Below are positions 29,341-49,843 of a DNA stretch of 64,000 nucleotides, in pieces. Positions within the stretch are counted from its first letter, which is position 1. Each line of letters begins with the position of its first letter. The DNA comes from Thraustochytrium sp. TN22 (Eukaryota > Sar > Bigyra > Thraustochytrida > Thraustochytriidae). The stretch is from contig JABLUY010000157.1 in NCBI GenBank assembly GCA_013306675.1, positions 1 to 64,000 of the forward strand, in the 5' to 3' direction. The notes below the pieces were generated by a model. The model saw only the letters and a list, made by a program, of their open reading frames with translations. It was not told the DNA's origin and did no database searches. The translations under genes were made by a program, and so were the position numbers.

Positions 29341-31344
29341 ATGGAGGCGCGCGGGCGCGCGGGCGCGCGGGCCGGCGGGCGCGTGCGGCCGCGGCCCGCG
29401 GCGCGGCTGGCGGCGCGGCGCTGGTGCTCGTGGCAGGCGGCGGTGGCGGCGCGCTCGAGCCTGGCGACGGCCGTCGCGACGGCGGCGGCCGCGGCCGCGG
29501 CCGCGCCGGCGCTGGCGTCGGCGGGCGAGCTGCTGCGCGGGAGGGAGGTGCTCGTGCTGTCGGACCCGCAGTCGTGCGACGCGGCGCTGCGCAGCGACGC
29601 GGCGCTGGCCAGGGCGCGATACGTGGGGCTCGACAGCGAGTGGCGGCCACACGAGCTGCTCGCGGGCGGCGAGGTGGCGGCGGGCGGCGCCGAGCAGCAG
29701 CAGCAGCAGCAGCACAACCCGACGTCCGTGGTGCAGATTGCGACACACGAGCGCGTGTACGTGGTGCAGGTGCTGGAATGCCTGAAGAGGGGCGCCTTTC
29801 CGGAGGCGCTGCGCGAGCTGCTGGCGTCCAGCCGCTGCATCAAGGTTGGCCTGGCGGTCAACAACGACGTGCGCAAACTCTGGAGCGACCATGGCGTGCG
29901 CGTGGCCTGCACGATCGATCTCAACGACCTCGTGCCGACGCGCCAGCCCATCTCACTCGCAAACCTCTCCGAGGTCGTGCTTGGCGTGCGACCCGAGAGC
30001 AGCGCCACCATGACGGACTGGGCCGCGCCCGTGCTCTCGGCGGCCCAGGTGCAGTACGCGGCGCTTGACGCCTGCCTCGTGCGCGACGTCTATGAACGCT
30101 TCGAGTGGGGCGGCCTGGCGCTTTCAGCGGCGGACGTTGAGCGCGCGCGGCGCGATGCGCGCGCGCGGCGCAGGGCGCAGCGCATCTTGGAAGACGCCAT
30201 ACAGGACTCCACGGCGCTGGATGATTCCGGCGCTGCCGGCGGCTGGGACGCCGGCACACTCACAGTCGGCACGCTCAAGCGCGGCCTCTACGACGGCATC
30301 GAACTCCAGGCGCCCGACGGCGAGGTGCTGGCCCTCATCCCCGTGCAGAAGATGCGCTGGTACCTGGGCAAGAACCTCGCGACCGAGGCAGAGCCCACCG
30401 GCCGCGTCCCAGGCGCCGCGCGAGCCGTGCGACTCAAGTTCGAACCGGCCAGCCGCAGCACGCCCAACCGCCGCCTGCAGCTCCAGGTCAAGGAGAACCA
30501 GTGCGTCGTCTGCGGCGCCATGCGCGACCTCGCACGCTTCTACATTGTCCCGCAGGTCTTCCGCCGCCAGTTTCCGCACGCCTACAAGACGCACATCTCC
30601 CACGACATCGTGCTCATGTGCTCGCGCTGCCACGGCCATGCGCGCGCCGCGGCGCGCGCCTTCCGCATCCAGCTCTACGAGGAAACCTTTGGCGAGAACC
30701 TCGAGCACCTCGACAATCTCACCGCCATACCGGTCGCCGAGCGCCGCGCAGCCTCGCTTGCGCACAAGGCCGCCTACGCCCTGCTCAACTACGAGGACTC
30801 CATGCCCGTGGAGAGACGCGACCAGCTGCGCAACGAGATTCGCGTCCACTACCCCGGCGGCATCGAGTCCTTCGACCGTGCCACGCTTCGCCGCGTCGAG
30901 GAGGAGACACAGCTCAGCGGCTCGCGCGCCCAGGCTTGGACCATCTCCTCGCTTCCGGCATCCTACTTTGTCAAGCATATACTCGCGCCGCACAATGACG
31001 ACCCCAAGGCCGAGTACGCCGCGCTACACGCCTTCATCCTGCGCTGGCGCCGTCTCTTCCTGGAAACCAGCCAGCCCTGCTTCCTCCCGCCCCACTGGAC
31101 CTTGGACAATCCCATCACCAACACCCTGCCCGAAGACGCCCTCGCCGCGGCGCTCCTTCGCCGCCAGCCGCCAAACAGCCACGACGACGAAGACGACGTC
31201 TTTAGCGACGACCCAGACGACGAAGAAGAAGATGAAGATGAAGGAGAAAACCACGATGACATGCTCGCCTACCCGCAGCGAGTCGCCGCCGCTGGCACGG
31301 CGAAACAACAACGCAGCCTCAGCGACAGCGACCTGAGGCCGTGA
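29341..31344 (+). CDS. EXD2: EXD2-like 3'-5' exonuclease with HNH-like zinc domain
   Basis: 667 aa from an ATG with G at -3 and +4. The N-terminus is Arg/Ala-rich with a hydrophobic alanine stretch at about 40-60, fitting a mitochondrial presequence or anchor. The DEDDy exonuclease domain has GLDSEW (Asp98, Glu100), NND (Asp176) and YAALD (Tyr239, Asp243). A second domain has CVVC (388-391) followed by SHDIVLMCSRCH (Cys427, Cys430), as in the HNH region of animal EXD2. The C-terminus is acidic. EXD2 acts on DNA and RNA and has been placed at mitochondria and in double-strand break resection. All catalytic residues are present. A polyglutamine run (29697-29710) interrupts the exonuclease domain. 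Confidence 0.9.
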   Translation: MEARGRAGARAGGRVRPRPAARLAARRWCSWQAAVAARSSLATAVATAAAAAAAAPALASAGELLRGREVLVLSDPQSCDAALRSDAALARARYVGLDSEWRPHELLAGGEVAAGGAEQQQQQQHNPTSVVQIATHERVYVVQVLECLKRGAFPEALRELLASSRCIKVGLAVNNDVRKLWSDHGVRVACTIDLNDLVPTRQPISLANLSEVVLGVRPESSATMTDWAAPVLSAAQVQYAALDACLVRDVYERFEWGGLALSAADVERARRDARARRRAQRILEDAIQDSTALDDSGAAGGWDAGTLTVGTLKRGLYDGIELQAPDGEVLALIPVQKMRWYLGKNLATEAEPTGRVPGAARAVRLKFEPASRSTPNRRLQLQVKENQCVVCGAMRDLARFYIVPQVFRRQFPHAYKTHISHDIVLMCSRCHGHARAAARAFRIQLYEETFGENLEHLDNLTAIPVAERRAASLAHKAAYALLNYEDSMPVERRDQLRNEIRVHYPGGIESFDRATLRRVEEETQLSGSRAQAWTISSLPASYFVKHILAPHNDDPKAEYAALHAFILRWRRLFLETSQPCFLPPHWTLDNPITNTLPEDALAAALLRRQPPNSHDDEDDVFSDDPDDEEEDEDEGENHDDMLAYPQRVAAAGTAKQQRSLSDSDLRP

Positions 31345-31610: not shown

Positions 31611-34600
31611 TCACGTCAGTGGACGCAGTACGGAGCGAAGGCATTCTACAGCGAGGTCGAGGTCGACGTCCTTGGCCTTGATCTGCTTGGCAAGACGCCG
31701 TGAAAAACGTTTGATAATGGACCGTTGCCACAGGTTCTTGTCGTCGCCCTCTTCCGAAACTGCCTCGCTAAACTCGTTCTCGTCCGGATCCGCATCCGTC
31801 GCACTCTCCGCATCCGTCGCATACGCCGCATCCGTCGCATTCTCCGGTTCAGTTGTGCCCACTAGACCTTCCCATTCCTTGTCGTTGATGGACTCCAGAA
31901 AGGTGAGCAGCTTGCTCACGACCGAGTCGCCAGTGACGTGATAAAGGTCGTCGAGAAATGAGGTGAGAACTGGTGGCGACGAAAACCGACCCCGAGAAAT
32001 CTCGGTCTCAAGACGATTGGCCATGTTCTCCACATCTTCACGGCTCAGTTGCGAATCCTGCTTCCTGAGCCAGGTCCTGATCTGAGATAGAGGCACAGGC
32101 CATTCAGGTCTTGAGGGAGGTTCATCTGACTTCGAGATTTGTACGCGGGCCTCGTTGTCGTCCGGCTTCTTGCGCTCCGGAGAGAAAAGCGAATGAGGGT
32201 CCATCGTCTCTGCTTGGCCCGCCTTGTCTATCACCTCTCCTGCCACGAAAGTAACTCTCTTGCGCTTGCTCCGCTTCGCCCTGTTCTCTGCTCGAAGACG
32301 CTTTCCCCGGTCTGCAATGTCCACCTGCCCACGCACTCGCCTAGGTTTACGGCGAGGAACATCTTCATCCTCGTCCGATTCGCGCTCTTCGCGCTCTTCG
32401 CGCTCTTCGCGCTCTTCGCGCTCTTCGATACTTCGACGAGGGCGCCTCCTAACACTCTTTGGGGAATCCACGGGAGTCCTCTCTTTGGCGGCCACAGTGC
32501 CGATAAAGAGTTGGTTCCACTTCTCGTCCGTCAGGTCATGCAGAACGACCAGAACGCGCTCCTCCGTGCACGTGGTGTCAATGCCGAGGTTAAAGGCGTC
32601 GAGCATGTCGTTGAGGGTGGGCGGGGGGGCGTCTCCTCCTCCACGATTTATCTCCGCCTCGAGACGCTTCGCCACATCAACCTTGTCTGGGAGGCTCAGC
32701 TGCACATTTTGTTGGTCGAGCCAGGCCTTGACCTGGCCAAGGGACACGTGGCCCGCCCTGTTCGACAGGCAGTCCCCTCGATCCCACTCTAATTGTACCT
32801 GCTTCGCGCGGGCCTCTCGCGCGAGCTCGACGAGCTTCTTTCTGTTGTTGGCTAGGTTTTGAGACTTGACAGCCTCTGAAGCAGCTTCGAGAAAGCCCGG
32901 GATGGCCTTGTCGCCAAGCTGGAGTGCCGCGCGTTGTACCTCGGGCGTCGCCAGGACGAACCTGGAGAGGGCGTCTGGCAGCGAGACGATCGGGCGCTGT
33001 TCCTTTGGGTCTGTCTTGCCCGGGAAGGCGCTCTTGTAGAAAGGCTTGTCGTTGAACTCGTGCTCGATGCGCCCCAGGCTCTGCAGAATACGCGTCTGGT
33101 CCAGTCGCGGCTCGGACTTGCGCAGGTACACCAGATTCGTGAGCTGGATGGTGCGGCACTTGGACTCCACGTCCGCCTGCTTGAGCAGCTGCTTTCCCAC
33201 GATGGCCAGCTTCAGAGGAAGCGTCTCGTAGTTGCGGTTCTCCTTGAGCGCCCCATCCTCCTTCTTACCGAGTCGCACCTCGTGCAGGTGGCGCGCAAGG
33301 CTGAGTGTGGCTTTGATGTCCATGAAACGTGGGATGCCAATCGCGAAGACCCCGCCGCCCACGACTTCAATCACGTTGCGGTCTTCGCCCTCGTCGTCGA
33401 GCGTGCTCGATCCTTGGCTTTTGACCTTGCGCTTGTCCCCCCCTTTTCCTTTGCGGCCCTTCTTGACCTTGGCGCTGAGGATGGCTCGGGCCTCCCGCTT
33501 GGCGCGAGTGAGAATCACATTGTGAAGCTCGAATCGATGTTCCGGCTTGAGGAGGCACTTTTCATTGGCCTCGCTGATGTTGAGCGTAACGAAGGTGTCG
33601 ACGAACTTGTCCATGTTGTCGATCTTGTTGAGCGCCTTGAGGACCTTGCTGTTGAAGTAGAGCTTCGGCCTCCTAAACTCGTCGGAGATTCGCGAGTGGT
33701 TGTAGATCGCGCAAGTGATGACTGTTGCAGCAGATTCGTTCAGCGCAGCGCCGTACTGAGCCATCCACTTGGCGATCTTGCCGTGGCCCACGTTGATGCT
33801 TTTGCGCGAGTCCTCGCTCTCGCGGGCGGCGTAGTCGTTCAGGACGATCGTGAAGCTTGAGTGGGGTTGTTCCAGGATCATCTTGAGCTTGGTCACGTAG
33901 TTCTCGTGCAGGGCGGTCGGCGGTCTGTTGGTGACGACGGCGCGCACGACCGCTTCCCTGGAACCCATACCTTGCGCAGCGCCTGGGTCAGCTGCTGCTG
34001 CCAGCGAAAAGGCTCTTGGCGCTGCGAGAAGCCCAGACGGTAGTCTGCTTGCGCTGTCCGACTGCTCAGCAGCCTCTGCGGCTGCCGCGGCCTCCTGGTC
34101 ACGCTTGAACTTCTCGAGCCTGGCTTGCGAGAGAGGGAAATCGCTGCGCGGGAACTCGACGATTTCTGGCTTCGTGTCGCTCTTGATCTCGTCCGTATTT
34201 TCATGTGCAACAACGAGAATGCGACCGTCCTTGTCGTCCTTCTCCCTTTCTTCACTGTACGGACCATAAAGGTAGTAGCCCTGCCGTGGGAGGATGTCCA
34301 CCTCCTTGAAGGCGTCGCCCATATGATTGCTCAAGACGTATTGGGCGCTCGGCGTCGCTGTCACAAAGGTGACGTCCTCCCACTGCCGTACCTCAGCTCG
34401 CACGCCCTCGGCAAACTTGGTTCCGCCCATCCCTTCGCGGCTCTCATCCAGGACAAGATGCGTAGTCTCGGACTTGAACTCTTCTCCCAGCTTGCCCCGG
34501 AAGAGCTCGTCCAGGGAGCGCAGACCAGCAACACTCGCGAGGCGCACGTTGAAGTGCACGGAGTAGCCGCGGTCCTTGATGTCAGGAAGGTGGATCGTCT

Positions 34601-36128
34601 GGTTGAGCCTGCTGAAAATGAAGGCCTTCTCAGGGAGCCACTCGCCCGTGCTCAGGTTCATACGGAGAATCTTGGACACCTTCGAGTGGTACTCCTTGTT
34701 CATGTCGGTCAGCGCACTCTCCATGTCGCGATACGACGCAATCTGTGAGTTCGCAAGCACTACAACATGCTTGCGATGCACGCCGCCGTGCATGAAGCCA
34801 CGCAGGAAGATAGCGCGCCGCGTCTTGCCGCCCTGCATGATGGAGGAGACCACCGCGCGTCCGCGGCGCCAGAAGGTCTTGAACACTTCCGACGTTGGGT
34901 CAACGAGGTCTGCTGCCTCGAAGTCATCCGCCATCATGACGTAGCCGATGCGAATATGAATGATGGAGCGCAGCTTCTCCTCGTTGTTTGCGCGCGGCGC
35001 CTCCAGCAGGCGCCCAATCTCTTCTATCACAGGGACGCACTCCAGGTAGGCGATATCGCCCATCTTGAACGCCTTGCCGACCGACCTATCGTCGAAGCGC
35101 ACGCCAGCGAAGTAGCCGCGTGCGAAAGCCCTATCCAAGTCCGACTCTGGCTGCTCCTCAGAGTCCGACCCACTCGAGTCGTCACTCAAGTCGTTGGCAT
35201 CCTCGTACTGTAAGTCCGAGTCGTCGCTGATGTCCACATCAGACTGACTGTCCGAGGATTCAGATGACTCCTCGGCACCTAAACTCAAATCCTTGGCCTC
35301 GGCAACGGTCTCCTGCGCGCCGCCCTCATCACCAGGCACTACCACAACATCTCTCATGGGCTCACCGGTAAAGGCGACCTCAGAAGGGCCAATGGCAGGG
35401 GCAGAGCCGCTCTCGACGCTATCGCGAGCAGCATCAGCAAGAGTCCGCTGCAGCGAGGCCAGCTTCGAGGCCGACAGAGCGCCCGCTCCGAGCCGCAGCT
35501 CCGTAAGCGCGCGCCCATCGTGGCGGCGTTTCAGGGCCGCCTCGACGAGCTTCCCCGTTGCGGACGCCCCAATGTTGTTATCGTCGCACAAGACGCTTTG
35601 CAGCGCGCTAGCTGGGTGCACGAGGGCCTTGCACAGCTCCTGGGCGTCGTCATCCTCGAGTCCGCAGCTGGCAACGTCAAGTGTTGTGAGCTTGATTGTC
35701 GCCGAGAAGAAGCGGTCCGCCGGCAGGCCGCAGAGGTCGTTGCGCGCCAGCCGAAGCTCGCGAAGGTGCACGTTCATGCCCTCCTTGAGAAGTTGCGCCA
35801 CGAGTAGCGCGCCATCTGCAGAAATTTCGTTCACGCTCAGGTCCAGCACCTCAACACGCGAGCGGGCCAGACCCTTGATCAGGATCTGCAGAGCGCGGTC
35901 ATCCACCTTGTTATCCGCCAGCTCCAACACACGAACTTTGCAGCCCTTCTGTACAAGGACACGCCGGAGCACGTCCAGGTCGAAGGCCGCCAGGCACAGC
36001 CCCGCGCCGCGGACGCGGTCCAGCTCGCCCAGGTGCCGGCACATGAGCCCCTCGTACCGCTCCGCGAGCCGCGCCAGCAGCAGCCGCACGGACACCGCCG
36101 GAATCGTCGCGTCGATGCCGTCAGCCAT
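31611..36128 (-). CDS. LRR / acidic / Z1-like SF2 NTPase protein, copy A
   Basis: 1,505 aa; the start is in CACCATGG. Residues 65-240 are NLR/RNI-type leucine-rich repeats (VRVLELADNKVDDRALQIL, VEVLDLSVNEISADGA, LRELRLARNDLCGL). Residues 276-326 are Ser/Asp/Glu-rich. A helicase-like core follows: Walker A MQGGKT (Lys435), VVVLANSQ, Walker B VLDES (Asp561, Glu562), TATPSA (590-595), VVGGGVFAIGI and a final QSLGRI (Gln1016, Arg1020). The order and the TATP...YYLYGPY and GGG...QxxGR spacing resemble bacterial Z1-type ATPases of restriction-related systems. A 75-aa helical module occurs twice near the C-terminus, with an Arg/Glu repeat and basic stretches between. Head-to-head with 36537. A function in nucleic-acid translocation is inference. 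Confidence 0.82.
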   Translation of the reverse strand: MADGIDATIPAVSVRLLLARLAERYEGLMCRHLGELDRVRGAGLCLAAFDLDVLRRVLVQKGCKVRVLELADNKVDDRALQILIKGLARSRVEVLDLSVNEISADGALLVAQLLKEGMNVHLRELRLARNDLCGLPADRFFSATIKLTTLDVASCGLEDDDAQELCKALVHPASALQSVLCDDNNIGASATGKLVEAALKRRHDGRALTELRLGAGALSASKLASLQRTLADAARDSVESGSAPAIGPSEVAFTGEPMRDVVVVPGDEGGAQETVAEAKDLSLGAEESSESSDSQSDVDISDDSDLQYEDANDLSDDSSGSDSEEQPESDLDRAFARGYFAGVRFDDRSVGKAFKMGDIAYLECVPVIEEIGRLLEAPRANNEEKLRSIIHIRIGYVMMADDFEAADLVDPTSEVFKTFWRRGRAVVSSIMQGGKTRRAIFLRGFMHGGVHRKHVVVLANSQIASYRDMESALTDMNKEYHSKVSKILRMNLSTGEWLPEKAFIFSRLNQTIHLPDIKDRGYSVHFNVRLASVAGLRSLDELFRGKLGEEFKSETTHLVLDESREGMGGTKFAEGVRAEVRQWEDVTFVTATPSAQYVLSNHMGDAFKEVDILPRQGYYLYGPYSEEREKDDKDGRILVVAHENTDEIKSDTKPEIVEFPRSDFPLSQARLEKFKRDQEAAAAAEAAEQSDSASRLPSGLLAAPRAFSLAAAADPGAAQGMGSREAVVRAVVTNRPPTALHENYVTKLKMILEQPHSSFTIVLNDYAARESEDSRKSINVGHGKIAKWMAQYGAALNESAATVITCAIYNHSRISDEFRRPKLYFNSKVLKALNKIDNMDKFVDTFVTLNISEANEKCLLKPEHRFELHNVILTRAKREARAILSAKVKKGRKGKGGDKRKVKSQGSSTLDDEGEDRNVIEVVGGGVFAIGIPRFMDIKATLSLARHLHEVRLGKKEDGALKENRNYETLPLKLAIVGKQLLKQADVESKCRTIQLTNLVYLRKSEPRLDQTRILQSLGRIEHEFNDKPFYKSAFPGKTDPKEQRPIVSLPDALSRFVLATPEVQRAALQLGDKAIPGFLEAASEAVKSQNLANNRKKLVELAREARAKQVQLEWDRGDCLSNRAGHVSLGQVKAWLDQQNVQLSLPDKVDVAKRLEAEINRGGGDAPPPTLNDMLDAFNLGIDTTCTEERVLVVLHDLTDEKWNQLFIGTVAAKERTPVDSPKSVRRRPRRSIEEREEREEREEREERESDEDEDVPRRKPRRVRGQVDIADRGKRLRAENRAKRSKRKRVTFVAGEVIDKAGQAETMDPHSLFSPERKKPDDNEARVQISKSDEPPSRPEWPVPLSQIRTWLRKQDSQLSREDVENMANRLETEISRGRFSSPPVLTSFLDDLYHVTGDSVVSKLLTFLESINDKEWEGLVGTTEPENATDAAYATDAESATDADPDENEFSEAVSEEGDDKNLWQRSIIKRFSRRLAKQIKAKDVDLDLAVECLRSVLRPLT
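31855..32745 (-). repeat. Two copies of a 75-aa C-terminal module in copy A
   Basis: Residues encoded at about 32500-32745 (SLGQVKAWLDQQNVQLS ... DEKWNQLFIGT) and about 31855-32095 (PLSQIRTWLRKQDSQLS ... DKEWEGLVGTT) align along their length, including RLEAEINRG and RLETEISRG. Copy B (38690-38930) has only the first. Between them lies a 9-bp tandem repeat (CGCTCTTCG, about five copies at 32382-32428) that codes for Glu/Arg repeats, and a TCCGTCGCA-type repeat lies at about 31790-31846. Confidence 0.85.
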
Positions 36129-36536
36129 GGTGGTGGTTTTGCACAGCGCCCGCGCCTGCGTGGCACGCCGCGTGCTTGTGGGGCCTGAGCAACACAGCGA
36201 AGAGGCGGCCGCGCTGTCCTTGCCCGGTTGCTCGCCCAACTTCCGCGTGCCAGCCCTCGGTGTACTCGCTCGCGCAGGGCTGCTGCCGGGCCGCGGCCGC
36301 GCGGCGCCGCCTCCGGGCCGCAGCCGCGCGCGCCTTCGTCGGGTCGCCGCGGCCGCTGCCGGCGACGCGCGACTTCGAGGTTTATTTCAAAACATCCCCT
36401 GCCTCTCTCCAGTCGTCGTCATCAGGTGAGGCAGAATGATTTGTTGACGCCACGTGGCACCACTGCCTGCCGACAAGGCGCGCGCCGAAGCCCCTTTCGC
36501 GCCAGCTTAGCAGTGCCCTTTCTGAGCTTGGCGCCG
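36129..36536. promoter_or_regulatory. Bidirectional promoter of unit A
   Basis: 408 bp between divergent starts, very GC-rich near 36285-36370. A segment GTCGTCATCA at 36414-36423 matches GTCGTCATCA at 42641-42650 upstream of the unit B partner, a small conserved island. A GTGAGG and an AG at 36510 could also form a 5' UTR intron; this is not decidable here. Confidence 0.4.
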
Positions 36537-38180
36537 ATGTTGCCGTCGCCGCAGCCGCCGCCGCCGCCGCCGTCGCCGACGCTGCCTCTGACGCCGCTGC
36601 AGCACCAGGGGCAGGACGGACAGGACCAGCGGGACCACCAGGACGAGCAACAGCGAGATGATGACCTGCCGCTGTCGCTGCGGCAGCCGACAACGCCGAC
36701 GCTGCCTCTGACGCCGCTGCAGCACCAGGGGCAGGACCGAGAGGACCAGCGAGACCACCAGGACAATCTACAGCGAGATGATGACCTGGACAACACTAAC
36801 CAGAGCGACCCTGACGACTACAACAGACCAGCAGACCAGGGTCTACTTCTCGACGAATTGGGCCTTGACGAATTTGTCCTTTTGCCTCCCATTGTGGTGT
36901 CAGATCAATCGGGCGGTGTGAACGAAGTGCAGGAGCAAGAGCAAGGATTGCAGCAGCACGAACAGGTGCATGAGCCGCTTCAGCAGCAGCAGGGACAGGG
37001 ACAAGGACAGGGACAGGGCTGGGCGCACATGCTTCGGGATGATCACCAGCATCAGCTCCAGCGGGGGACAGACGAGCACCACCAGCAAGGAGTGAAGCGC
37101 CAGCGCCAGCGACAAGCTGAGGCGCCGCGAGGCCTGCATGAACAGGCGCCGGGCCACTTTAACTTCTTTACCATCGGCACGCTGGCGAAAGTTCACGGAG
37201 GCCGTCACGTGGAGTCGCTCGAGATCGCACGCACCATCTCGCACCGTGCTTTTGTGGCACTCGAGCGGGACCTCGGTATCGTTGAGCACGAAAGGGACTG
37301 TGAGTCTGTGGATCAGGTTGCCGCTGCGGTCGATCAACTTGGCCGCTATCTCAAGAGCGCTGGAGAAGGGATCTCACCAAGATTTCGCGAGGAGGTGGAG
37401 AACTCTCTGCAGTACAAACTTTATGCTCGACTCAAGCCGCGTCTCGGCCTGAACCGTGTGCTGGCCGCCCTCGAGCATCGGATTTCAACAGTGCGGAAGC
37501 CGTCAGTTCGCTATGTGTACGCGCTGATGGCGCGCCGTTTGAGTGGCCGCCAAGACCCCGAAGAGTACTGGTCTCAGGTTGGCAATGACCGCTTGAGCAT
37601 CAAAAATGCCTTGCGCGATTGTCTGCGATTTCCCTCCAACCGAATTCTCTTCCAGATCGCACTCATGATCCACACACAGCCGACGGCGGTCAAAAAAGCC
37701 TACGAACTAATCGGTGAGGGAGATAGAGGGTCATTTACGATGGTAGAACCCGATTCATGCAGCGAGGGAGCCTTCAAGGCTGCCACTCGCATTGGGAAGA
37801 ACGAAAAAGTGCTCATAGCCATTTGCGAGCACATGTATCCGATTGGCCCAGCCTCGAAAACAACCACCTGCGAGCACTGCATTAACTGGTTCGTCGAGGC
37901 GCAGTATCATAAGTACTCAAGCCACTGCAAAGCCCGAGACGGTCGTCCGGAGCCCCTCAATCGAGTTCATCTGAATCTCTTCGACGAAATTCTCACACGC
38001 GCAGAGGATGCTTTGAGCGGCTGCAGCATCTTCACTCTTCGCGAGGTTCTTCGCCCGCTTAACTTCTCCTTTCACAACCTTCAAAGCGCCTCTGAGAACG
38101 CCTACAAGCGCGCCAACAAGCGCGCAAGTCAGCTCAACGATGCCGACGTTCCTCCTGCGAAGAAGCATAGAGGCCGTTGA
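36537..38180 (+). CDS. CEH-CEHC motif partner protein, copy A
   Basis: 547 aa from the ATG at 36537, whose context is weak, so the start is uncertain. I do not recognise the family. Residues 1-210 are Gln/Asp/His/Pro-rich low complexity with a 40-residue tandem duplication and Gly-Gln repeats. Residues 220-540 form the conserved part shared with copy B: EIARTISHRAF, QVAAAVDQL, VRYVYALMARRL, NRILFQIALMIHTQP, and a cluster CEHMYPIG (Cys430) ... TCEHCINWF (Cys445, Cys448), with a further Cys at 464. That spacing suggests a small zinc site. The end is basic (KRANKRAS, KKHRGR), like a nuclear signal. Paired head to head with the LRR-NTPase gene, suggesting co-expression and joint function (inference). 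Confidence 0.75.
   Translation: MLPSPQPPPPPPSPTLPLTPLQHQGQDGQDQRDHQDEQQRDDDLPLSLRQPTTPTLPLTPLQHQGQDREDQRDHQDNLQRDDDLDNTNQSDPDDYNRPADQGLLLDELGLDEFVLLPPIVVSDQSGGVNEVQEQEQGLQQHEQVHEPLQQQQGQGQGQGQGWAHMLRDDHQHQLQRGTDEHHQQGVKRQRQRQAEAPRGLHEQAPGHFNFFTIGTLAKVHGGRHVESLEIARTISHRAFVALERDLGIVEHERDCESVDQVAAAVDQLGRYLKSAGEGISPRFREEVENSLQYKLYARLKPRLGLNRVLAALEHRISTVRKPSVRYVYALMARRLSGRQDPEEYWSQVGNDRLSIKNALRDCLRFPSNRILFQIALMIHTQPTAVKKAYELIGEGDRGSFTMVEPDSCSEGAFKAATRIGKNEKVLIAICEHMYPIGPASKTTTCEHCINWFVEAQYHKYSSHCKARDGRPEPLNRVHLNLFDEILTRAEDALSGCSIFTLREVLRPLNFSFHNLQSASENAYKRANKRASQLNDADVPPAKKHRGR
36575..36790 (+). repeat. 120-bp in-frame tandem duplication
   Basis: The segment starting GCCGACGCTGCCTCTGACGC at 36575 recurs at 36695, 120 bp on. 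Both copies encode TLPLTPLQHQGQD followed by QRDHQD and QRDDDL with few changes. This is a recent expansion in the disordered part of the partner protein; copy B lacks it. Confidence 0.9.
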
Positions 38181-38222
38181 AGTAGCCAAGGTTTTGCGAT
38201 CAAAAGAAACGTGAATTTCTCT

Positions 38223-41200
38223 TTATCGAAGTGGTATAAAGTGCGGCCCGGCATCGCCGAGGCGCTTGTTGGCCGCGCTGATCATCTTCTTGAGGCGCTT
38301 CTGGATCTCGTTGCGCATCTCCTCGTCCGTCATCTTCTCGGTAGTGGCCTTCTTCCCACACTTGCGGAGGGCCTCGACAAGCCCTGCGACATCGCCCCAG
38401 GCATCTAGAAAGCAGCTTCCAGGGAGCTTGCGTAAGTCTTCTGACGTGAGCGCAAGCCGGCTCTTGCCAGTCACCTTGCGTTTGCCGCCTGGGTTTTCAA
38501 CCTTGAATCGCTCCAGCAGAACCTTGTCGAAGTACTTGAGGAAGAACCTGTTGAGGGGGGGCTTGGTTCGGGACTTGCTTCGGCGCACTGGCTTATCTTC
38601 ATCTTCCTCATCTTCATCTTCGCTCTCAGTCTCGACGACAGAGCGTCCGCGCTTCTTTGACTTGCCTGCGGTTGCGCTCGCGCCAGTGCCGACAAAGAGC
38701 TGGTTCCACTTCTCGTCCGTCAGGTCATCCAGAACGCCTAGGACGCGCTCCTCCGTGCGCGTGGCGTCGATGCCGAGGTTAAAGATGTCGAGCATATCGT
38801 TGAGGTTGGGCGGAGTGTCGTATCCTCCCCGGTTGATCTCGGCCTCGAGACGCTTCGCCACATCTGCCTTGTCTGGGAGGCTCAGCTGCACGTCTTGTTG
38901 GTCGAGCCAGGCCTTGACCTGGCCAAGGGACACATGGCCCGCCCTGTCGGCGAGGCCGTCATCACCGTCCCGCTCAAACTGTGCCTGCTTCGCACGCGCC
39001 TCCCGCTCGAGCTCGACGAGCTTCTTGACGTTGGCTTGGATCGAGGCAGACTTGGCCGCCTCTGAAGCCGCCTCTAGAAAGCCCGGGATGGCCTTGTCGC
39101 CGAGCTGGAGTGCTGCGCGCTGTAACTGTGGCGTCGCCAGGATGAACTTGGAGAGAGCGTCTGGCAGCGAGACGACCGGGCGCTGTTCCTTTGGGTCTGT
39201 CCTGCCCGGGAAGGCGCTCTTGTAGAAGGGTTTGTCGTTGAACCCGTGATCGATGCGCCCCAGGCTCTGCAGAAGGCGCGTCTGATCTAGTCGCGACTCG
39301 AACTTGCGCAGGTACACCAGGTTGGTGAGCTGGATGGTGCGGCACTTGGACTCCACGTTGACCGCCTGCTTGAGCAGCTGCTTGCCCACAATGGCCAGCT
39401 TCAGAGGAAATGAATCGTAGTTGCGTCTCTCCGTGAGCGCCCCATCCTTCTTGCCGAGGCGCGCCTCGTGCAGGTGACGCGCGAGGCTAAGTGTGGCCTT
39501 GATGTCCATGAAACGTGGGATGCCAATCGCGAAGACCCCGCCGCCCACGACTTCAATCACGTTGCGGTCTTCGTCCTCGTCGTCGAGGGCGCTCAATCGT
39601 CGGTCCTTGCCCTTGCGCTTGGCCTTCTTGTCTTTGCGGCCCTTCTTGACCTTGAACTTGGCGCTGAGGATGGCTCGGGCCTCCCGCCTGGCGCGAGTGA
39701 GAATCACATTGTAAAGCTCGAATCGATGTTCCGGCTTGAGGAGGCACTTTTGATTGGCCTCGCTGTTGTTGAGCGTGATGAAGGTGTCCACGAACTCCTC
39801 CATGTTGTCGATCTTCTTGAGCGCCTTGAGGACCTTGCTGTTGAAGTAGAGCTTCGGCTTCCTAAACTCGTCGGAGATTCGCGAGTGGTTGTAGATCGCG
39901 TACGTGATGACGGTCGCAGCAGTGTCTTCTTGCGCAGTGCCGTACTGAGCCATCCATTTGGCGATCTTGCCGTGGCCTACGTTGATGCTCATGTTCGACT
40001 CCTCGTCCTCGCGGGCACCGTAGTCGTTCAAGACGATGGTGAAGCTTGAGTGAGGCTGCTCTAGGATCATCTTGAGCTTGGTCACATAATTCTCGTCCAT
40101 GGCAGTCGGCGGTCTGTTGGCGATGACGGCACGCACAACCGCTTCCCCGGAGCCCGGCCCGTGCGCAGCGCCTGAGCCAGCTGCTGCTGCCAGCGAAAGA
40201 GCGCCAGGCGCTGCGAGAAGCCCCGTCGATGCTTTGCTTGCGCTGTCCGACTGTTCAGCAGCCTCTGCGGCTGCCGCGGCCTCCTCGTCACGCTTGAGCT
40301 TCTTGAGCCTGGCTTGCGAGAGAGGGAAATCGCTGCGCGGGAACTCCACGGTTTCTGGCTTCGTGTCGACCTTGATCTCGTCCGTATTTTCATGTGCAAC
40401 AACGAGAATGCGACCGTCCTTGTCGTCCTTCTCCGGTTCTTCACTGTACGGACCATAAAGGTAGTAGCCCTGCCGTGGGAGGATGTCCACCTCCTTGAAG
40501 GCATCGCCCATGTGATTGTTCAAGACGTATTGGGCGCTCGGCGTCGCTGTCACAAAGGTGACGTCCTCCCACTGCCGTACCTCAGCTCGCACACCCTCGG
40601 CAAACTTGGTCCCGCCCATCGCTTCGTGGCTCTCATCCAGGATAAGATGCGTCGTCTCGGACTTGAACTCTTCTCCCAGTTTGCCCCGGAAAGGCTCGTC
40701 CAGGGAGCGCAGACCAGCAACACTCGCGAGGCGCACGTTGAAGTGCACGGAAGAGTAGTCGCGGTCCTTGATGTCAGAAAGATGGATCGTCTGGTTGAGC
40801 CTGCTGAAAATGAAGGCCTTCTCCGGGAGCCACTCGCCCGTCCTCAGGCTCGTACGAAGCTTCTTGGACACCTTCGAGTGGTACTCCTTGTTCATGTCGG
40901 TCAGCGCACTCTCCATGTCGCGATACGCCGCAACCTGTGAGTTCGCAAGCACTACAACATGCTTGCGATGCACGCCGCCGTGCATGAAGCCACGCAGGAA
41001 GATAGCGCGCCGCGTCTTGCCGCCCTGCATGATGCAAGAGACCACCGCGCGTCCGCGGCGCCAGAAGGTCTTGAACACTTCCGACGTTGGGTCAACGAGG
41101 TCTGCTGCCTCGAAGTCGTCCGCCATCATGACGTAGCCGATGCGAATGTGGATGATCGAGCGCAGCTTCTCCTCATTGTTTGCGCGCGGCGCCTCCAGCA

Positions 41201-42326
41201 GGCTCCCGATCTCTTCTATCACAGGGACGCACTCCAGGTAGGCTTCATCGCCCATCTTGAACGCCTTGCCGACCGACTTATCGTCAAAGCGCACGCCAGC
41301 GAAGTAGCCGCGACCGAACGCCCTATCCAAGTCCGACTCCTGCTGCTCCTCGGAGTCAGACCCACTCGATTCGTCACTCGAGTCGTTGGCATCCTCGTAC
41401 TGAGAGTCCGAGTCGTCGCTAATGCTCCCAATGGACTGGCTGTCCGAGGAGTCATCGGACTCATCGGCACCCGGACTCGAGCCTTTGACATCGGGCACAG
41501 TATCTTGCGTGCTGCCCTCGCCACCGGCCACTTCCACGACATCTTTCATGGGCTCGCCGGTGAAGGTGACCTCACAGGGGGGCGCGGCAGGGGCAGGGCC
41601 GATCGCGACGCGGCTGCGGCCGGCTACGTCAAGCGTCTGCTGCAAGGATTCTAGCTTTGAGTGCGACAGAGCGTCCGCGCCGAGCCGCAGCTCAGCAAGC
41701 GTACGCCCTTCGCTGCGCCGTGTCAGCGCCGCCTCGACGAGCTTTTCAGTTGCGGACGGCCCAATGTCGTTGTCGTCGCAAAAGACCCGTTGCAGCGCGC
41801 TAGCCGGGTGCACAAGCGCCTTGCAAAGCTCTTCTGCGGCGTCGTCCTCGAGTCCACAACCGGCAACGTCCAGCGTCGTGAGCTTGACGGCCGCTGCAAA
41901 AAAGTAGTCCGCCTGCAGGCCGCAGAGGTCGTTGCGCGCCAGACGGAGCTCGCGAAGACGCACGTTCGCGTTCTCCTTCAGAAGCTGCGCCACGAATCTC
42001 GCGCCTTCCGCAGAGACCTCGTTCGCGCTCAGGTCCAGCACCTCGACACGCGAGCCGGGCAGACCCTTGATTAAAATATCCAGCGCGCGATCGTCCACCT
42101 TATTGTTCGCCAGCTCCAGCACGCGGACCTTGCAGCCCTCCTGCGCCAGCACGCCTCGCAGTACCTTGAGGTCGAAGGCGCCCAGGCACAGCCCCGCGCC
42201 GCGCACGTGCTCCAGCTCACCCAGGTGCCGGCACACGAGCCCTTCGTACCGCTCCGCGAGCCGCACGAGCAGCAGCCGCGCCGTTACCGCCGAGGCTTCT
42301 GCGCCGGCGCCGACGCCGCTGTCCAT
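38223..42326 (-). CDS. LRR / acidic / Z1-like SF2 NTPase protein, copy B
   Basis: 1,367 aa from MDSGVGAGAEAS, chosen by alignment with copy A. The order is the same: LRRs (VRVLELANNKVDDRALDIL, LRELRLARNDLCGLQAD), acidic serine-rich linker, Walker A MQGGKT (Lys437), Walker B VLILDESH-type with DESH where copy A has DESR, TATPSAQYVL, then VVGGGVFAIGI and QSLGRI. The core is nearly identical to copy A by eye. It has one 75-aa module, then a basic linker and a tail absent from copy A (PLNRFFLKYFDKVLLERFKV, later a CGKKATTEKMTDEEM helix). The frame is open and ungapped. The stop lies 42 bp from that of the unit A partner. Function unknown; NTP-driven action on nucleic acid is inference. Confidence 0.82.
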   Translation of the reverse strand: MDSGVGAGAEASAVTARLLLVRLAERYEGLVCRHLGELEHVRGAGLCLGAFDLKVLRGVLAQEGCKVRVLELANNKVDDRALDILIKGLPGSRVEVLDLSANEVSAEGARFVAQLLKENANVRLRELRLARNDLCGLQADYFFAAAVKLTTLDVAGCGLEDDAAEELCKALVHPASALQRVFCDDNDIGPSATEKLVEAALTRRSEGRTLAELRLGADALSHSKLESLQQTLDVAGRSRVAIGPAPAAPPCEVTFTGEPMKDVVEVAGGEGSTQDTVPDVKGSSPGADESDDSSDSQSIGSISDDSDSQYEDANDSSDESSGSDSEEQQESDLDRAFGRGYFAGVRFDDKSVGKAFKMGDEAYLECVPVIEEIGSLLEAPRANNEEKLRSIIHIRIGYVMMADDFEAADLVDPTSEVFKTFWRRGRAVVSCIMQGGKTRRAIFLRGFMHGGVHRKHVVVLANSQVAAYRDMESALTDMNKEYHSKVSKKLRTSLRTGEWLPEKAFIFSRLNQTIHLSDIKDRDYSSVHFNVRLASVAGLRSLDEPFRGKLGEEFKSETTHLILDESHEAMGGTKFAEGVRAEVRQWEDVTFVTATPSAQYVLNNHMGDAFKEVDILPRQGYYLYGPYSEEPEKDDKDGRILVVAHENTDEIKVDTKPETVEFPRSDFPLSQARLKKLKRDEEAAAAAEAAEQSDSASKASTGLLAAPGALSLAAAAGSGAAHGPGSGEAVVRAVIANRPPTAMDENYVTKLKMILEQPHSSFTIVLNDYGAREDEESNMSINVGHGKIAKWMAQYGTAQEDTAATVITYAIYNHSRISDEFRKPKLYFNSKVLKALKKIDNMEEFVDTFITLNNSEANQKCLLKPEHRFELYNVILTRARREARAILSAKFKVKKGRKDKKAKRKGKDRRLSALDDEDEDRNVIEVVGGGVFAIGIPRFMDIKATLSLARHLHEARLGKKDGALTERRNYDSFPLKLAIVGKQLLKQAVNVESKCRTIQLTNLVYLRKFESRLDQTRLLQSLGRIDHGFNDKPFYKSAFPGRTDPKEQRPVVSLPDALSKFILATPQLQRAALQLGDKAIPGFLEAASEAAKSASIQANVKKLVELEREARAKQAQFERDGDDGLADRAGHVSLGQVKAWLDQQDVQLSLPDKADVAKRLEAEINRGGYDTPPNLNDMLDIFNLGIDATRTEERVLGVLDDLTDEKWNQLFVGTGASATAGKSKKRGRSVVETESEDEDEEDEDKPVRRSKSRTKPPLNRFFLKYFDKVLLERFKVENPGGKRKVTGKSRLALTSEDLRKLPGSCFLDAWGDVAGLVEALRKCGKKATTEKMTDEEMRNEIQKRLKKMISAANKRLGDAGPHFIPLR

Positions 42327-42514
42327 GCACGCGAGCGGGCCTACTGCACCGGCCGCGTCAACAACCTTCGAGTCAACCTGAGCGGAGGTCGCGAAGCAGC
42401 GTCTGCACGCGCCGCGGCCCGGTCGTCCAGGGCGACCGCGCGGCCGCTGTCCTCGCTGCCGGGCCACCACTCTGCACGCGCTCAGCGCTCGCGCTCTCGG
42501 ACGCCGCGGCGCGC

Positions 42515-42556
<42 letters not shown>

Positions 42557-42668
42557 GTCTGGGCAGCAAGCTTTGAGGTCTGCCCGACCGACGAACCTGC
42601 GGCGCTCCTCTTTCAGCTTTCAGCTCTTTCGCGCAAATATCCATCTGAGGTCGTCATCACCCTTGGCT
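42327..42668. promoter_or_regulatory. Bidirectional promoter of unit B with GCC repeat
   Basis: 342 bp between divergent starts. It carries a (GCC)n tract at 42513-42552 and, next to the partner start, the GTCGTCATCA island also seen in unit A. Confidence 0.45.
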
Positions 42669-43916
42669 ATGGCATCGCCCGCGGGCCCGTCAGCTGCGCA
42701 GCCCGCCGGCGCGGCGGCGGAGCTGGCGCCGCCGCCCTGGCCTGAGTCGCCGCCGCCACCGCCGTCGGCGCCACCGGACACGAACGGCCTAGACTCGGAC
42801 ATGGGCGCCGGGCAGCGTGCTTACCTTCACGAGGACTACGATACGCTCGACCTGCTCGGAATCCATAAGAAACAACAGCAAGAGGGAGAGCACGAGCAAA
42901 GGCAGGGCGCGGAGGACCGAAGCCTGATGGACTTCTTCATCCAGGAGGCGCAAAGATCTGACGATGGCGGGGAGGACCCTCTCGAGACGGCGCGCACGCT
43001 CTCGCACCGCGCGTTCGCGGCACTCGGGCGGCACTTCGAGACCGCCAGCCGCGACGAGGCCTTTGAGGCCGTCGATCAGGTTGCCAATGCGGTCAAACAG
43101 CTCGCCATTTATCTCCATGGCGCGTCGGTGCGCACACCGGCCGAGGTCCGCCAGGACGTGGAGAATTCGCGGCAATATGTGGACTTTGCTCGCGTCGAGC
43201 CACGCATGAGGTTCAACCGGGTTCTGCGTCATCTGGAGCCTCGGGTACGAGGGGCTCCATGGCTCAAGATTACGTCGCACCACGTGTACGCGCTGCTGGC
43301 GCGCCGAATGGGAAGTGATCCTCAGGAATACTGGAAGGGCGCGGGCCGAGGGAAGGCCGGAATCAATCGGGCGATGCGCAATTGTCTCCAGAGTCCTGCG
43401 AACAGGACTCTGTTCCAGATTGCACTCATGATGCATGTACAGCCAGAGCCCGTCAGGAAGGCCTGGAATCAAGCCGGGCTGCCGGCGAATGAGTCCTACT
43501 TCATTGTGGAGCCTAGTGGCGCGTGCAGCGAAACCGCTTTTCAGGCCGCTACTCGTATCCCGGGGGACGACGCCCACGTGAGACAGAATGGCTGCCTCCT
43601 CGTGCCCATGTGCGAGCACCTGTATCTCATCGGCCCTGCTTTCAACGGCAATACTTGCGAGCACTGCGTGAATTGGTTCATCGACGAGCGGTACAAGAAG
43701 TACGGGCGGTGCTGCAGAGACGTGGCCGACGGCGGCGCCAAGGCTCCCGATGTCCTTTCCCTGGAAGTTCTCGACGATATCCTAGTCCACGCGGAGCAAG
43801 CGCTTTCCGGTTGCAGCGTCTTTACTCTCAGCAAGCTTCTTGGAGACCTTGCTTGCTCCATTCCCGGCCTGCAGAAAGCCACCGAGACCGCCTACAAGCG
43901 CCGAGATGCGCAGTAG
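42669..43916 (+). CDS. CEH-CEHC motif partner protein, copy B
   Basis: 415 aa from an ATG with G at -3 and +4. A short Pro/Ala-rich N-terminus replaces the long Gln-rich part of copy A. The conserved domain runs from about residue 95: ETARTLSHRAFAALGRHFE, QVANAVKQLAIYL, HHVYALLARRM, NRTLFQIALMMHVQP, and CEHLYLIG (Cys315) ... TCEHCVNWF (Cys330, Cys333), the same 15-residue spacing as copy A. Identity to copy A is roughly half by eye in this part, far lower than between the two NTPase genes. The end (YKRRDAQ) is shorter and less basic. The pairing with an LRR-NTPase is retained. No known family recognised. Confidence 0.78.
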   Translation: MASPAGPSAAQPAGAAAELAPPPWPESPPPPPSAPPDTNGLDSDMGAGQRAYLHEDYDTLDLLGIHKKQQQEGEHEQRQGAEDRSLMDFFIQEAQRSDDGGEDPLETARTLSHRAFAALGRHFETASRDEAFEAVDQVANAVKQLAIYLHGASVRTPAEVRQDVENSRQYVDFARVEPRMRFNRVLRHLEPRVRGAPWLKITSHHVYALLARRMGSDPQEYWKGAGRGKAGINRAMRNCLQSPANRTLFQIALMMHVQPEPVRKAWNQAGLPANESYFIVEPSGACSETAFQAATRIPGDDAHVRQNGCLLVPMCEHLYLIGPAFNGNTCEHCVNWFIDERYKKYGRCCRDVADGGAKAPDVLSLEVLDDILVHAEQALSGCSVFTLSKLLGDLACSIPGLQKATETAYKRRDAQ

Positions 43917-45132
43917 ATTGTTCAAAACATTCGTAAATACGGGGCTCTTGTATTGGCTTGGCATGCGGGTTCCAGGTGCGATACCACTGTGGTACCCTAT
44001 CCACAACTCTTTTTCAGGCATGTGGCAAACGAGAGTTTGAAAATAGCGTGACGCCTGCAGCCAGCGCTTCAAGCGCCGATCAAGGAACCTTTGCGTCGTG
44101 TCGGCACAATGCGCTTATTCTGCCTGGCCGGCGCTTCGTGACGACGTCAAAGCCTGCTCTTGCCTTGGAGCGGAGCAAACAAACCTCTGCCTCCAGAGCC
44201 GATCCCTCGCCACGTCCTCGCAAACTCTCTCTCCACCCTCCACCACGGCATGGCACGGCCAGCCAAGCGTCGACGCCCGGCGGCGTCCGCTGCGCCGTGG
44301 TCGCGACCGCCGGTGCCAGTGAGGTCTTTCCCTCTGGTCCCGACACCGGCGTCCCCGCCATGCGGCCACCCAGCCCCCTTCGCACACCCACACAGCGTCC
44401 ATGCCCGTGCTCCTGATGGTGACCATGACTGCCCGTGTCCTCCGAGTCCGGCGGCGGCCTCGCGCGAGGCGCGGCGCACCCGGTGGCCGCGGCCCCAGGC
44501 ACGCGCGGGGCGGCGCCGCGGGCCCGCGGCGGCGCGCGCGGGCCCGGGCGCGGCGGCGCGCAGCGGGTCCTCTGGCACGCGCCCGCTGCGGTCACCTTCG
44601 TCATCAAGGTCCATGCCCGCCAGTGGCATGCATAACCTCATCGCCCAGTCCACTCGCGGCGGGCACGGCTCGCTGCGCGGCGGCGGCGGCGGGGGGCGCT
44701 GCGCTGCGCTGCGCTGCGCTGCGCTGCGCACGCGGCCGCTCGCTCGAGCCCGGCCGCGCCCGGCTCGCGGCGCGGCGGCGCCGGCATGGCGGGGGCACGG
44801 CGGCATGGCGGCATGACGGCCGCGCCCGCGGTGGAGTCGCGCGCGGCGGCGGCGGCGGCGGCGCGCGGCGCGCGCGGGCGCGAGCGCGGGAGCCCCCGCG
44901 CCGCGCCGCGCGGCGGCGCGCGCCGGCCAGGCCCAGGGCCCGCGCGCGCGGCGCGCGCGGCGCGGCGAAGCTCTGTGCGGCGCATCGCAGCAGGCCGCGG
45001 CGCAGCAGAGGCGCGCGAGCGGGCGGGCGCACGCCGGGCAGAGGCGCGCGCGCGGGGCGGCGGCGGCGCGCGCGGGGCGGCGGCGCGGCGGCGGGCCCGG
45101 GCCCGGGCGCCGCTGCGCGGCGCACGGCCGGC
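43917..45132. other. 1.2-kb GC-rich spacer
   Basis: This lies between the partner gene and the first receptor. From 44440 to 45130 it is almost entirely GCG/CGC-type sequence, with a pentanucleotide GCGCT tract at 44697-44729. Open frames here are Arg/Ala-only. It is probably the receptor's promoter and 5' UTR. No gene supported. Confidence 0.5.
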
Positions 45133-46962
45133 ATGCGGTCGCGGCGCGGCGGCGCGGTGGCCAGATCGGTTGCGGCGGCGGCGCGGGTGGCCGCGGCGGC
45201 GGTGCTGGTGCTGAGCGCGCAGGGCGAGGCGGCCGGGCAGACGGACACAGACACGTTCTCGGAGGGGCAGCAGAAGGCGATCGCGTGGACGCCCAGGTTC
45301 ACCGGCGCGCTGTCGCTGGTTGGGTCGGTGTCGATCTTGGTGTCCATCGTGCGTAGGGTGCGGGGCGGCGAGGAGTCGCGGCAGTACCACCGGATCCTCT
45401 TCATGATGAGCATCTTCGACCTGCTGGGGTCGGCGTGGTTCTTCGCGTCGGCCTGGCCCATGCCGCGCGACACGGCCGACGTGTACGGCGCCATCGGGAA
45501 CGTGACCACGTGCACGGTGCAGGGCTTCTTCCTGCAGTTCAACCTGGCGGTGCCTTTCTACTACACCTTTCTGTCCATCAACTACGTGCTGGCCATCCGC
45601 TACGAGTGGCGCGAGCATCGCCTGCGCCGTATTGAGCCCTACATGCACGCCTTGGCCATTCTCTTCCCGCTCGGGACGGCCTGCGCGGCTGCCGGGCTCA
45701 CGCTCTTCAACGCGGCGGGCCAGTGGTGCTGGATCGCCAAGTACCCGCTGAGCTGCACCAGCTCGTCGGACGTGGACGAGGCCAACGCGAGTGTGGCCGA
45801 GTCCTGCTCGCGCGGCGACAACGCGGCCATCTACCAGTGGGCCTTCTTCTACGCGCCGCTCTGGCTGCTCATGCTTGTTGCGCTCGTGTCCATGGTGCTC
45901 GTCTATCTGCACGTCTTCCAGCAGGAGAAGCGCGTGTCTCGCTTCGTGGCGCAGGACGTCACCAGCAGCCGCCGCTCTTTCCGCAAGTCGCAGCTCGTCG
46001 CGGTGCAGGGCGCGCTCTACGTGGCCTGTTTCTATCTGACCTGGATCTTTGGCACCATCAACCGCCTGTACCAGACCGCCACGATGCAGTCCAACTTTGC
46101 GCTCACATTTCTGCACTGCTTCTTCGTGCCGCTGCAGGGCTTTCTCAACTTCTTCGTCTACATCCGCCCGCGCTTTTACCACAGCGACTCCACCTATCGC
46201 GGCCTGCAGCACGTTTTGCACGTGCTCAGCTGCCCCTGCATGCCGGGCAACGCCTCGCCCAACAAGAGCTTCAATACGGGTCGCAGCGGCGAAAACGCGG
46301 CCCAGGGCCCCAACCCGGCCGCCAACGGGAACTCCGACGACGGCTCTGCCAAGCGCGCCAAGAATGGCGTGCGCTTTGCGTCGTTGCTCCGCAAGCATCA
46401 GACGGAAGCCAACGGCGACACGGGCGTGCACAGCAGCTCCAATAGCGTGCAAGAAATTCTGCGCTCTGCCGATGTCATCTCTCGCGCGCGCCCCGAGAAC
46501 TCCACCCAGTCCTCAAGTCCCAACAGCACGGCGCGCGCCGACCCGCTCCTCGAGGAGGACCTGGAGCAGGTCACAATACTGACCACCGCCGAGGCCGCCA
46601 CCGGCGCTGATAGCGGCGAAGGCGGCGAGATTGAAAGGAGAGACAGCGAGGGGGGTGACGTTGTGCTGGACGCCGGCGAGGCCCTCAACAGCGAGGAGGC
46701 CGCCCTTGTGCGCGCGCTCGACCGCGCTCAGGCCGCCGGGGAGGGGGCGGAAGAGGCCCCTTCGCCGCCCAGGCCGCCCGCGCCCATGCTGCGCACCGCG
46801 AGCGGCACCGACGACGAACAACCAACCGACCTCGACGACGGCGAGGAAGAGGAGGAGGAGGTGGCGGAGGAGGCGGAGGCGGCGGAGGCGGCGGAGGAGG
46901 AGGGTATCGGGTCAGCCTCTGACTACGCCAAGGCGTCCTCCACGACCATGCAACTGACCTGA
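45133..46962 (+). CDS. Seven-transmembrane receptor, cAMP-receptor-like
   Basis: 609 aa. A signal peptide (about 1-35) is followed by seven helices between about 50 and 370, then a 240-residue cytosolic tail rich in Ser/Asn then Glu/Ala. The layout matches cAMP-receptor-like and related fungal/amoebal GPCRs. A Cys before helix 3 (TTCTVQGFFLQFNLAVPFYY) and Cys in the second extracellular loop could form the usual disulfide. Helix 3 ends SINYVLAIRYEWRE, and helix 7 has FVPLQGFLNFFVYIRPRFY, close to the PLQGFxN motif of the family. NVT and NAS are potential glycosylation sites in extracellular loops. It is presumably a plasma-membrane receptor coupling to a G protein; the ligand is unknown. A related gene follows in tandem. 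Confidence 0.82.
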   Translation: MRSRRGGAVARSVAAAARVAAAAVLVLSAQGEAAGQTDTDTFSEGQQKAIAWTPRFTGALSLVGSVSILVSIVRRVRGGEESRQYHRILFMMSIFDLLGSAWFFASAWPMPRDTADVYGAIGNVTTCTVQGFFLQFNLAVPFYYTFLSINYVLAIRYEWREHRLRRIEPYMHALAILFPLGTACAAAGLTLFNAAGQWCWIAKYPLSCTSSSDVDEANASVAESCSRGDNAAIYQWAFFYAPLWLLMLVALVSMVLVYLHVFQQEKRVSRFVAQDVTSSRRSFRKSQLVAVQGALYVACFYLTWIFGTINRLYQTATMQSNFALTFLHCFFVPLQGFLNFFVYIRPRFYHSDSTYRGLQHVLHVLSCPCMPGNASPNKSFNTGRSGENAAQGPNPAANGNSDDGSAKRAKNGVRFASLLRKHQTEANGDTGVHSSSNSVQEILRSADVISRARPENSTQSSSPNSTARADPLLEEDLEQVTILTTAEAATGADSGEGGEIERRDSEGGDVVLDAGEALNSEEAALVRALDRAQAAGEGAEEAPSPPRPPAPMLRTASGTDDEQPTDLDDGEEEEEEVAEEAEAAEAAEEEGIGSASDYAKASSTTMQLT

Positions 46963-49778: not shown

Positions 49779-49821
<43 letters not shown>

Positions 49822-49843
49822 CTCCGACGATGGCCCGCATTAA
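48451..49843 (+). CDS. Seven-transmembrane receptor, second copy, with introns
   Basis: Three exons are inferred. The last, 48754-49843, starts after CAG and encodes YFRIVFLMTLCDVV onward (helices 2-7). The middle, about 48556-48670, encodes helix 1 (TRAGAALSLAGDAVIVYG) and ends at GTAAGT. The first, 48451-48495, encodes MAVEALLRDDQQALA. The middle-last junction is in frame and matches the first receptor (RILFMMSIFDLL). The first junction with canonical sites (AG/GTAGGT and CAG/GG) is one base out of frame, so that boundary is unsettled. Shared features with the 45133 gene include the Cys before helix 3 (TLCIVQGCFLQVGLA) and FVPLHGLFNMMGFLFPRI. The tail is shorter, ending in a Gly run and an Asp run. 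Roughly 400 aa. Confidence 0.7.

Follow-up and report, generated by a model that had tools for sequence, protein, structure and literature searches.

What does a locus encode in which a gene for a large protein starts head to head with a gene for a small, unrelated one, and in which the whole pair stands twice? The locus lies in a stretch of 64,000 nucleotides from Thraustochytrium sp. TN22 (assembly GCA_013306675.1, contig JABLUY010000157.1, positions 1 to 64,000), here called the window; it is contig C63 of an assembly of 37.9 Mb in 453 contigs. An earlier note on this DNA had described a duplicated head-to-head pair and proposed a sensor or two-component system. The duplicated pair is borne out: the four long open reading frames (ORFs) are present, and contig C422 holds a further pair of the same kind. 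The large proteins join N-terminal leucine-rich repeats (LRR) to a nucleoside triphosphatase (NTPase) of superfamily 2 (SF2) class, LRR and small gene are linked in all three units, and preserved and eroded NTPases stand as neighbours. It is quite possible, at somewhat below an even chance, that the pairs form a lineage-specific modular sensor/partner unit of a thraustochytrid-like protist, driven by an SF2 engine and working like paired nucleotide-binding leucine-rich repeat receptors (NLRs) without being one.

In each window pair an LRR-NTPase gene on the minus strand faces a small gene on the plus strand, with order and orientation kept. The ORF bounds reported earlier overlapped; the overlap disappears when likely in-frame ATGs, our own choice for all four genes and placed before the conserved parts, are taken as starts.

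31611-36239, minus strand: LRR1 ORF, likely ATG at 36128 (ORF list)
31611-36128, minus strand: large protein LRR1, 1505 codons when read from its likely ATG, with LRR, acidic linker, SF2 NTPase and helical C-terminus (ORF, motifs)
36129-36536: 408 bp separating the start of LRR1 from the divergent start of S1 (likely ATGs)
36228-38180, plus strand: S1 ORF, likely ATG at 36537
36537-38180, plus strand: S1 small partner, low-complexity N-terminus followed by a conserved core (ORF, likely ATG)
38223-42644, minus strand: LRR2 ORF, likely ATG at 42326
38223-42326, minus strand: large protein LRR2, 1367 codons when read from its likely ATG, with intact NTPase motifs (ORF, motifs)
42327-42668: 342 bp separating the start of LRR2 from the divergent start of S2 (likely ATGs)
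42207-43916, plus strand: S2 ORF, likely ATG at 42669
42669-43916, plus strand: S2 small partner (ORF, likely ATG)

The LRR recognised earlier in the large protein is confirmed by Pfam LRR_6, which exceeds its cutoff of 23.4 bits in both LRR1 (27.2) and LRR2 (25.5), and by PDB matches of LRR1 to an LRR protein (2.3e-8), ribonuclease inhibitor (1.2e-7) and NLRP14 (2e-4). It lies N-terminal to the NTPase in all three LRR copies. The C-termini of LRR1 and LRR2 differ, LRR1 having a second KAWLDQQ-like segment (a likeness judged by eye). The motifs QGGKT, VLDES (ILDES in LRR2), TATPSA and QSLGR, named in the earlier note, are all found in the large proteins.

35421-35942, minus strand: LRR1 leucine-rich repeats, ribonuclease-inhibitor type (Pfam LRR_6, PDB matches)
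34821-34841, minus strand: LRR1 motif I, IMQGGKT (motif search, alignment)
34434-34457, minus strand: LRR1 motif II, LVLDESRE (motif alignment)
34341-34367, minus strand: LRR1 motif III, FVTATPSAQ (motif search)
33057-33188, minus strand: LRR1 motif V/VI region, LLKQA-DVESKCR and QSLGRIEHE (motif alignment)
41613-42134, minus strand: LRR2 leucine-rich repeats (Pfam LRR_6, genome search)
41013-41033, minus strand: LRR2 motif I, IMQGGKT (motif search)
40623-40646, minus strand: LRR2 motif II, LILDESHE (motif search)
40530-40556, minus strand: LRR2 motif III, FVTATPSAQ (motif search)
39243-39377, minus strand: LRR2 motif V/VI region, LLKQAVNVESKCR ... LLQSLGRIDHG (motif alignment)

Walker A, a DExx box, a TAT/SAT motif III and a Q-x-x-GR motif VI follow one another in LRR2, in the paralogues C102, C341 and C425b, and in four outside relatives; the series is partly changed in LRR1 and C422a and eroded in C425a and C422b. 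Motif II reads DESR in LRR1, DESH in LRR2, C102, C341 and P0001-P0004, and DEAH in C425b. The motif V/VI region of intact relatives reads QA/S-V/I-NVES and LGRx-D/N-HG, and LRR1 departs from both, its changes being DESR for DESH, QA-DVES for QAVNVES and IEHE for IDHG. The SF2 arrangement of two RecA-like lobes is present. The SF2-like core proposed earlier is thus supported by the motif series, the two lobes and an SF2-type predicted model, but Pfam assigns it to no known SF2 family above the curated cutoff; only C425b comes near, scoring 18.7 bits for ResIII against a cutoff of 22.5 and 14.5 for DEAD against a cutoff of 26. A match to an ordinary helicase family, named in the earlier note as a ground for rejecting its proposal, did not appear above cutoff in the library scans.

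The same result bears on a serious, if somewhat doubtful, alternative: an SF2 enzyme that remodels nucleic acids in the processing of RNA or DNA, in repair or in silencing. Its LRR would be a mere docking platform, the small protein (S) a metal-binding cofactor, and nothing would be sensed. The lack of any SF2 family above cutoff in the library scans argues against it, and tandem copies, eroded neighbours and an array of armadillo (ARM)-like repeats would be unusual for a housekeeping enzyme.

Each protein search scored about 8000 candidates sharing most words with the query. For the NTPase (7991 of about 5.8 billion proteins, E<=0.01) it returned four homologues, a metagenome protein and three hypothetical proteins of the thraustochytrid Hondaea fermentalgiana (FCC1311_006572, FCC1311_059062 and FCC1311_056142), the latter 37-40% identical to the LRR1 core in the alignment. 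Among PDB structures, Foldseek placed an MDA5 chain and an LGP2:MDA5 filament chain first (best E 1.5e-3, TM-scores 0.20-0.28). Profile comparison with the SF2-type ATPase of a known partner-encoding system gave a weak first-lobe similarity (probability 26.6%, 68 columns around motifs II-III); a reversed control gave 0.2% and another reversed pairing 14.2%. The defence, phage and NCBI libraries (PADLOC, PHROG, NCBIfam) returned weak rows only, and, judged by titles and abstract openings, none of the papers found by the literature searches describes an LRR-SF2 protein in thraustochytrids.

The best matches in the viral Foldseek library, giant-virus SF2 proteins at E 3.4e-4 and 5.2e-4, are slightly better than the best PDB match, as would be expected if the genes were virus or mobile-element remnants, or domesticated genes, with an NTPase from a giant-virus-type SF2 helicase and an S-LRR part acquired later. 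This origin is very unlikely and was set aside. Viral contigs, examined with two peptide patterns for each protein (33 and 105 hits), yielded no confirmed relative of the NTPase or of S, and no terminal inverted repeats except GC-rich matches occur among the 25 of 56 pairs listed. Of four window neighbours that were scanned, three belong to cellular families, no search having been aimed at virus hallmark genes.

The third unit permits the linkage of the two genes to be weighed.

C422 96392-105268, minus strand: C422b LRR-NTPase, 2832 aa from the likely ATG, same LRR subtype, diverged NTPase (ORF, genome search)
C422 105297-106562, plus strand: S3 small partner (ORF)

This pair is head to head in the same orientation as those of the window, with a start gap of 409 bp. 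S3 matches S2 at 47.8 bits (best of 2000 shuffles, 27.3). A genome search with the LRR of LRR2 gave 19 matches, three of them strong (the two window copies and C422, at 1.7e-31); other LRR proteins follow at 3.5e-6 and weaker. S1 as query found S1 and S2, and S3 found S3 and S2; because S1 missed S3, more diverged copies of S elsewhere could be missed. With that limit, this LRR subtype and S were detected together at three of three places in the 38-Mb genome, while five NTPases (C102, C341, C425a, C425b and C422a) have no Pfam LRR match and no S beside them in genome searches with S1 and S3.

S and LRR-NTPase might nevertheless be neighbours that travel together without working together, their linkage being a passive by-product of duplication. 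The window units are an evident tandem duplication, and the C422 unit could stem from one old segmental duplication. When window ORFs of at least 120 aa were compared with the 48 kb around the C422 unit (E<=1e-5), only LRR1, LRR2 and S2 matched, although the identity of the C422 LRR and S has fallen to about 40%; thus no larger segmental duplication is visible. Because a third pair exists on C422 and no other window ORF matches there, the pairing goes beyond chance, and the absence of S beside the LRR-less NTPases points the same way. A passive origin of the linkage is decidedly unlikely.

At the C-terminal end of C422b we counted 33 units, each of 44 aa (TRF gives 34.3 copies), with a mean pairwise identity of 92%; the units are mainly of two alternating forms, with DNA 98% identical within a form. 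They may be ARM-like, a reading of ours that is independent of any library scan. Such an array occurs in one of the eight own NTPase paralogues.

S1 and S2 carry the CEH-x12-CEHC cluster that the earlier note had called conserved, a putative metal site.

37824-37880, plus strand: S1 CEH-x12-CEHC cluster, putative metal site (sequence)
43611-43667, plus strand: S2 CEH-x12-CEHC cluster (sequence)

Neither S1 nor S2 has a Pfam match, S3 has none above cutoff, and no PADLOC, PHROG or NCBIfam match carries weight. In the N-terminus of S1, a 120-bp segment is tandemly duplicated at 36548-36787 (88% identical).

The NTPases stand in three tandem arrangements, each with a better-preserved member and a neighbour with eroded motifs (mildly so in the window).

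C425 119433-122342: C425a NTPase, Walker A and B destroyed (paralogue search)
C425 122999-125797: C425b NTPase, intact (paralogue search)
C422 91905-95900: C422a NTPase paralogue without LRR, carrying IMQGGKT and sharing 58% identity with the adjacent C422b

C425a has KTHWSKL at motif I and VLVEAN at motif II, and its neighbour C425b is intact; C422b has IPAQDTSIL at motif I, and its neighbour C422a has IMQGGKT and VLDEAH. Erosion was scored over the 98 columns that do not vary among seven intact relatives without LRR; 39 are changed in C425a and 63 in C422b. In the tree the branch of LRR1 measures 0.15 and that of LRR2 0.011; C422b has 0.78 and C422a 0.069, C425a 2.2 and C425b 1.12, with warnings in the tree output about the long C425a branch and the composition of C422b. 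Relative-rate counts lean the same way in 15 of 15 tests, whose outgroups are not independent, and reach p<0.05 with five of five outgroups for C425. The C-terminus of C422a is a Cys-rich stretch that looks zinc-binding by eye.

Divergence between the window units is uneven. LRR1 and LRR2 are 78.1% identical over 1344 aligned codons, and S1 and S2 43.3% over 404. With domain bounds of our own, the NTPase shows a synonymous divergence (dS) of 0.086 over its first half and 0.233 over its second; the LRR reaches 0.54, the C-terminal stretch 0.69 and the S core 1.09. Between the two copies of the large gene (32349-36128 versus 38226-42326) dS varies about 8-fold along the length. A single duplication date is hard to reconcile with this range, and the simplest reading is that the NTPase part has been homogenised by gene conversion.

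If the pairs are indeed sensor/partner units, the N-terminal, ribonuclease-inhibitor-type LRR of the large protein would read a ligand, and this reading would be coupled to the ATP-driven, two-lobed SF2 engine. The small divergent protein, made from the same intergenic region, would be a dedicated partner, either adaptor or effector. In the tandem NTPases, the better-preserved member would signal and the eroded member would mainly recognise or regulate. Ligand sensing, an interaction of large and small protein and a role in defence or self/non-self recognition may follow. The interpretation of the earlier note is partly supported: the architecture holds, as does the linkage in three of three units. 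The large proteins are not NLRs themselves: no NACHT or NB-ARC appears at E<=1 in Pfam scans, the predicted model is of SF2 type instead, and the LRR is not C-terminal. It is unlikely that thraustochytrids evolved a non-STAND counterpart of NLR immunity serving antiviral defence or the recognition of self and non-self, with an LRR- or ARM-repeat sensor, an SF2 engine in active/inactive pairs and a dedicated, divergently transcribed adaptor or effector.

Several observations weigh against such a sensor/partner unit. The Hondaea NTPase relatives have no LRR in the Pfam scan (FCC1311_056142 being partial) and no detectable S. Two protein searches found zero relatives of S; the first probably lost words to low-complexity sequence, and the second, with the core only, is the better test. 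Structure prediction, which the earlier note had proposed for both proteins and which gave the SF2-type model of the large one, yielded no confident fold for S (predicted local distance difference test, pLDDT, 48). With neither relative nor confident fold, the adaptor or effector role is a guess. The CEH cluster is missing from S3, and the NTPase of its unit has lost its P-loop. The three intergenic gaps have no motif beyond chance in common; a shared promoter motif was rejected, as the candidates were two 9-mers (mutual reverse complements) where 0.25 is expected and up to 4 occur in 200 shuffles. Erosion in the window is mild, with 6 of 98 columns changed in LRR1 and 2 in LRR2, which is suggestive but not proof. 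C422a, the better-preserved C422 copy, departs at 56 columns and is thus kept in motifs I and II but not in III and VI. In the relative-rate tests three of five outgroups give p<0.05 for C422 and two of five for the window. Pairwise tests between the window units give no positive selection: the ratio of nonsynonymous to synonymous divergence (dN/dS) ranges over 0.28-0.43 for the listed domains, and the highest value of any 80-aa window with computable dS is 0.82; such pairwise averages cannot exclude selection at single sites. Finally, in a third plant model pair, Pik, both P-loops are required (PMC9528088).

On one side of the pairs, a 3'-5' exonuclease gene (29029-31344; DNA_pol_A_exo1, E 4.3e-14) has a Cys-containing C-terminal region that looks HNH-like by eye. 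On the other side lie a seven-transmembrane-looking gene (44401-46962) that matches Dicty_CAR, the slime-mould cAMP receptors (E 1.6e-5), and a second such gene (48713-49843) with no Pfam match.

NLR-type receptors are usually seen as STAND NTPases with repeats. If a sensor/partner unit is the right description, the combination of sensor and NTPase came about once more on another kind of motor, and the partner gene follows the LRR, not the engine. To our knowledge, little is known of immunity or self-recognition in labyrinthulomycetes; the locus offers two concrete proteins to test, with LRR-less paralogues and eroded copies as natural controls.

Among known systems, the one in which a large SF2-type ATPase is encoded with a partner shares the Q-S/G-GKT Walker A and the weak first-lobe profile similarity. 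In the CglI-type two-gene restriction-like system, the partner has a PLD nuclease and a B3 domain; S has no Pfam match above cutoff and a low-confidence model. The Hondaea proteins belong to the same NTPase family and differ in having no LRR match in Pfam and no S relative in the protein searches. RIG-I-like receptors (MDA5, LGP2, RIG-I) resemble the large protein in their SF2 engine and supply its top two Foldseek PDB matches, weak in E value and low in TM-score, but no CARD is detected here in Pfam scans of the large proteins, and an LRR part is present; we know of no LRR in those receptors. STAND proteins place the repeat domain C-terminal to the NTPase; here the LRR is N-terminal. Fungal NLRs have internally conserved WD, ANK or TPR repeats and no LRR (PMC4986451). 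Like the nwd family, the present proteins join exchangeable repeat domains to an NTPase core, and one of their arrays exceeds 85% internal identity, but the core is SF2 and the ARM-like repeats are confined to one paralogue. Plant paired NLRs are mostly encoded head to head, several hundred to several thousand bp apart (PMC9528088). With such pairs as RPS4/RRS1 and RGA4/RGA5, the Thraustochytrium units share an LRR joined to a P-loop NTPase, mostly head-to-head genes and clustered copies; their engine is SF2 rather than NB-ARC, their LRR is N-terminal, and their divergent partner is a small unrelated protein rather than another NLR.
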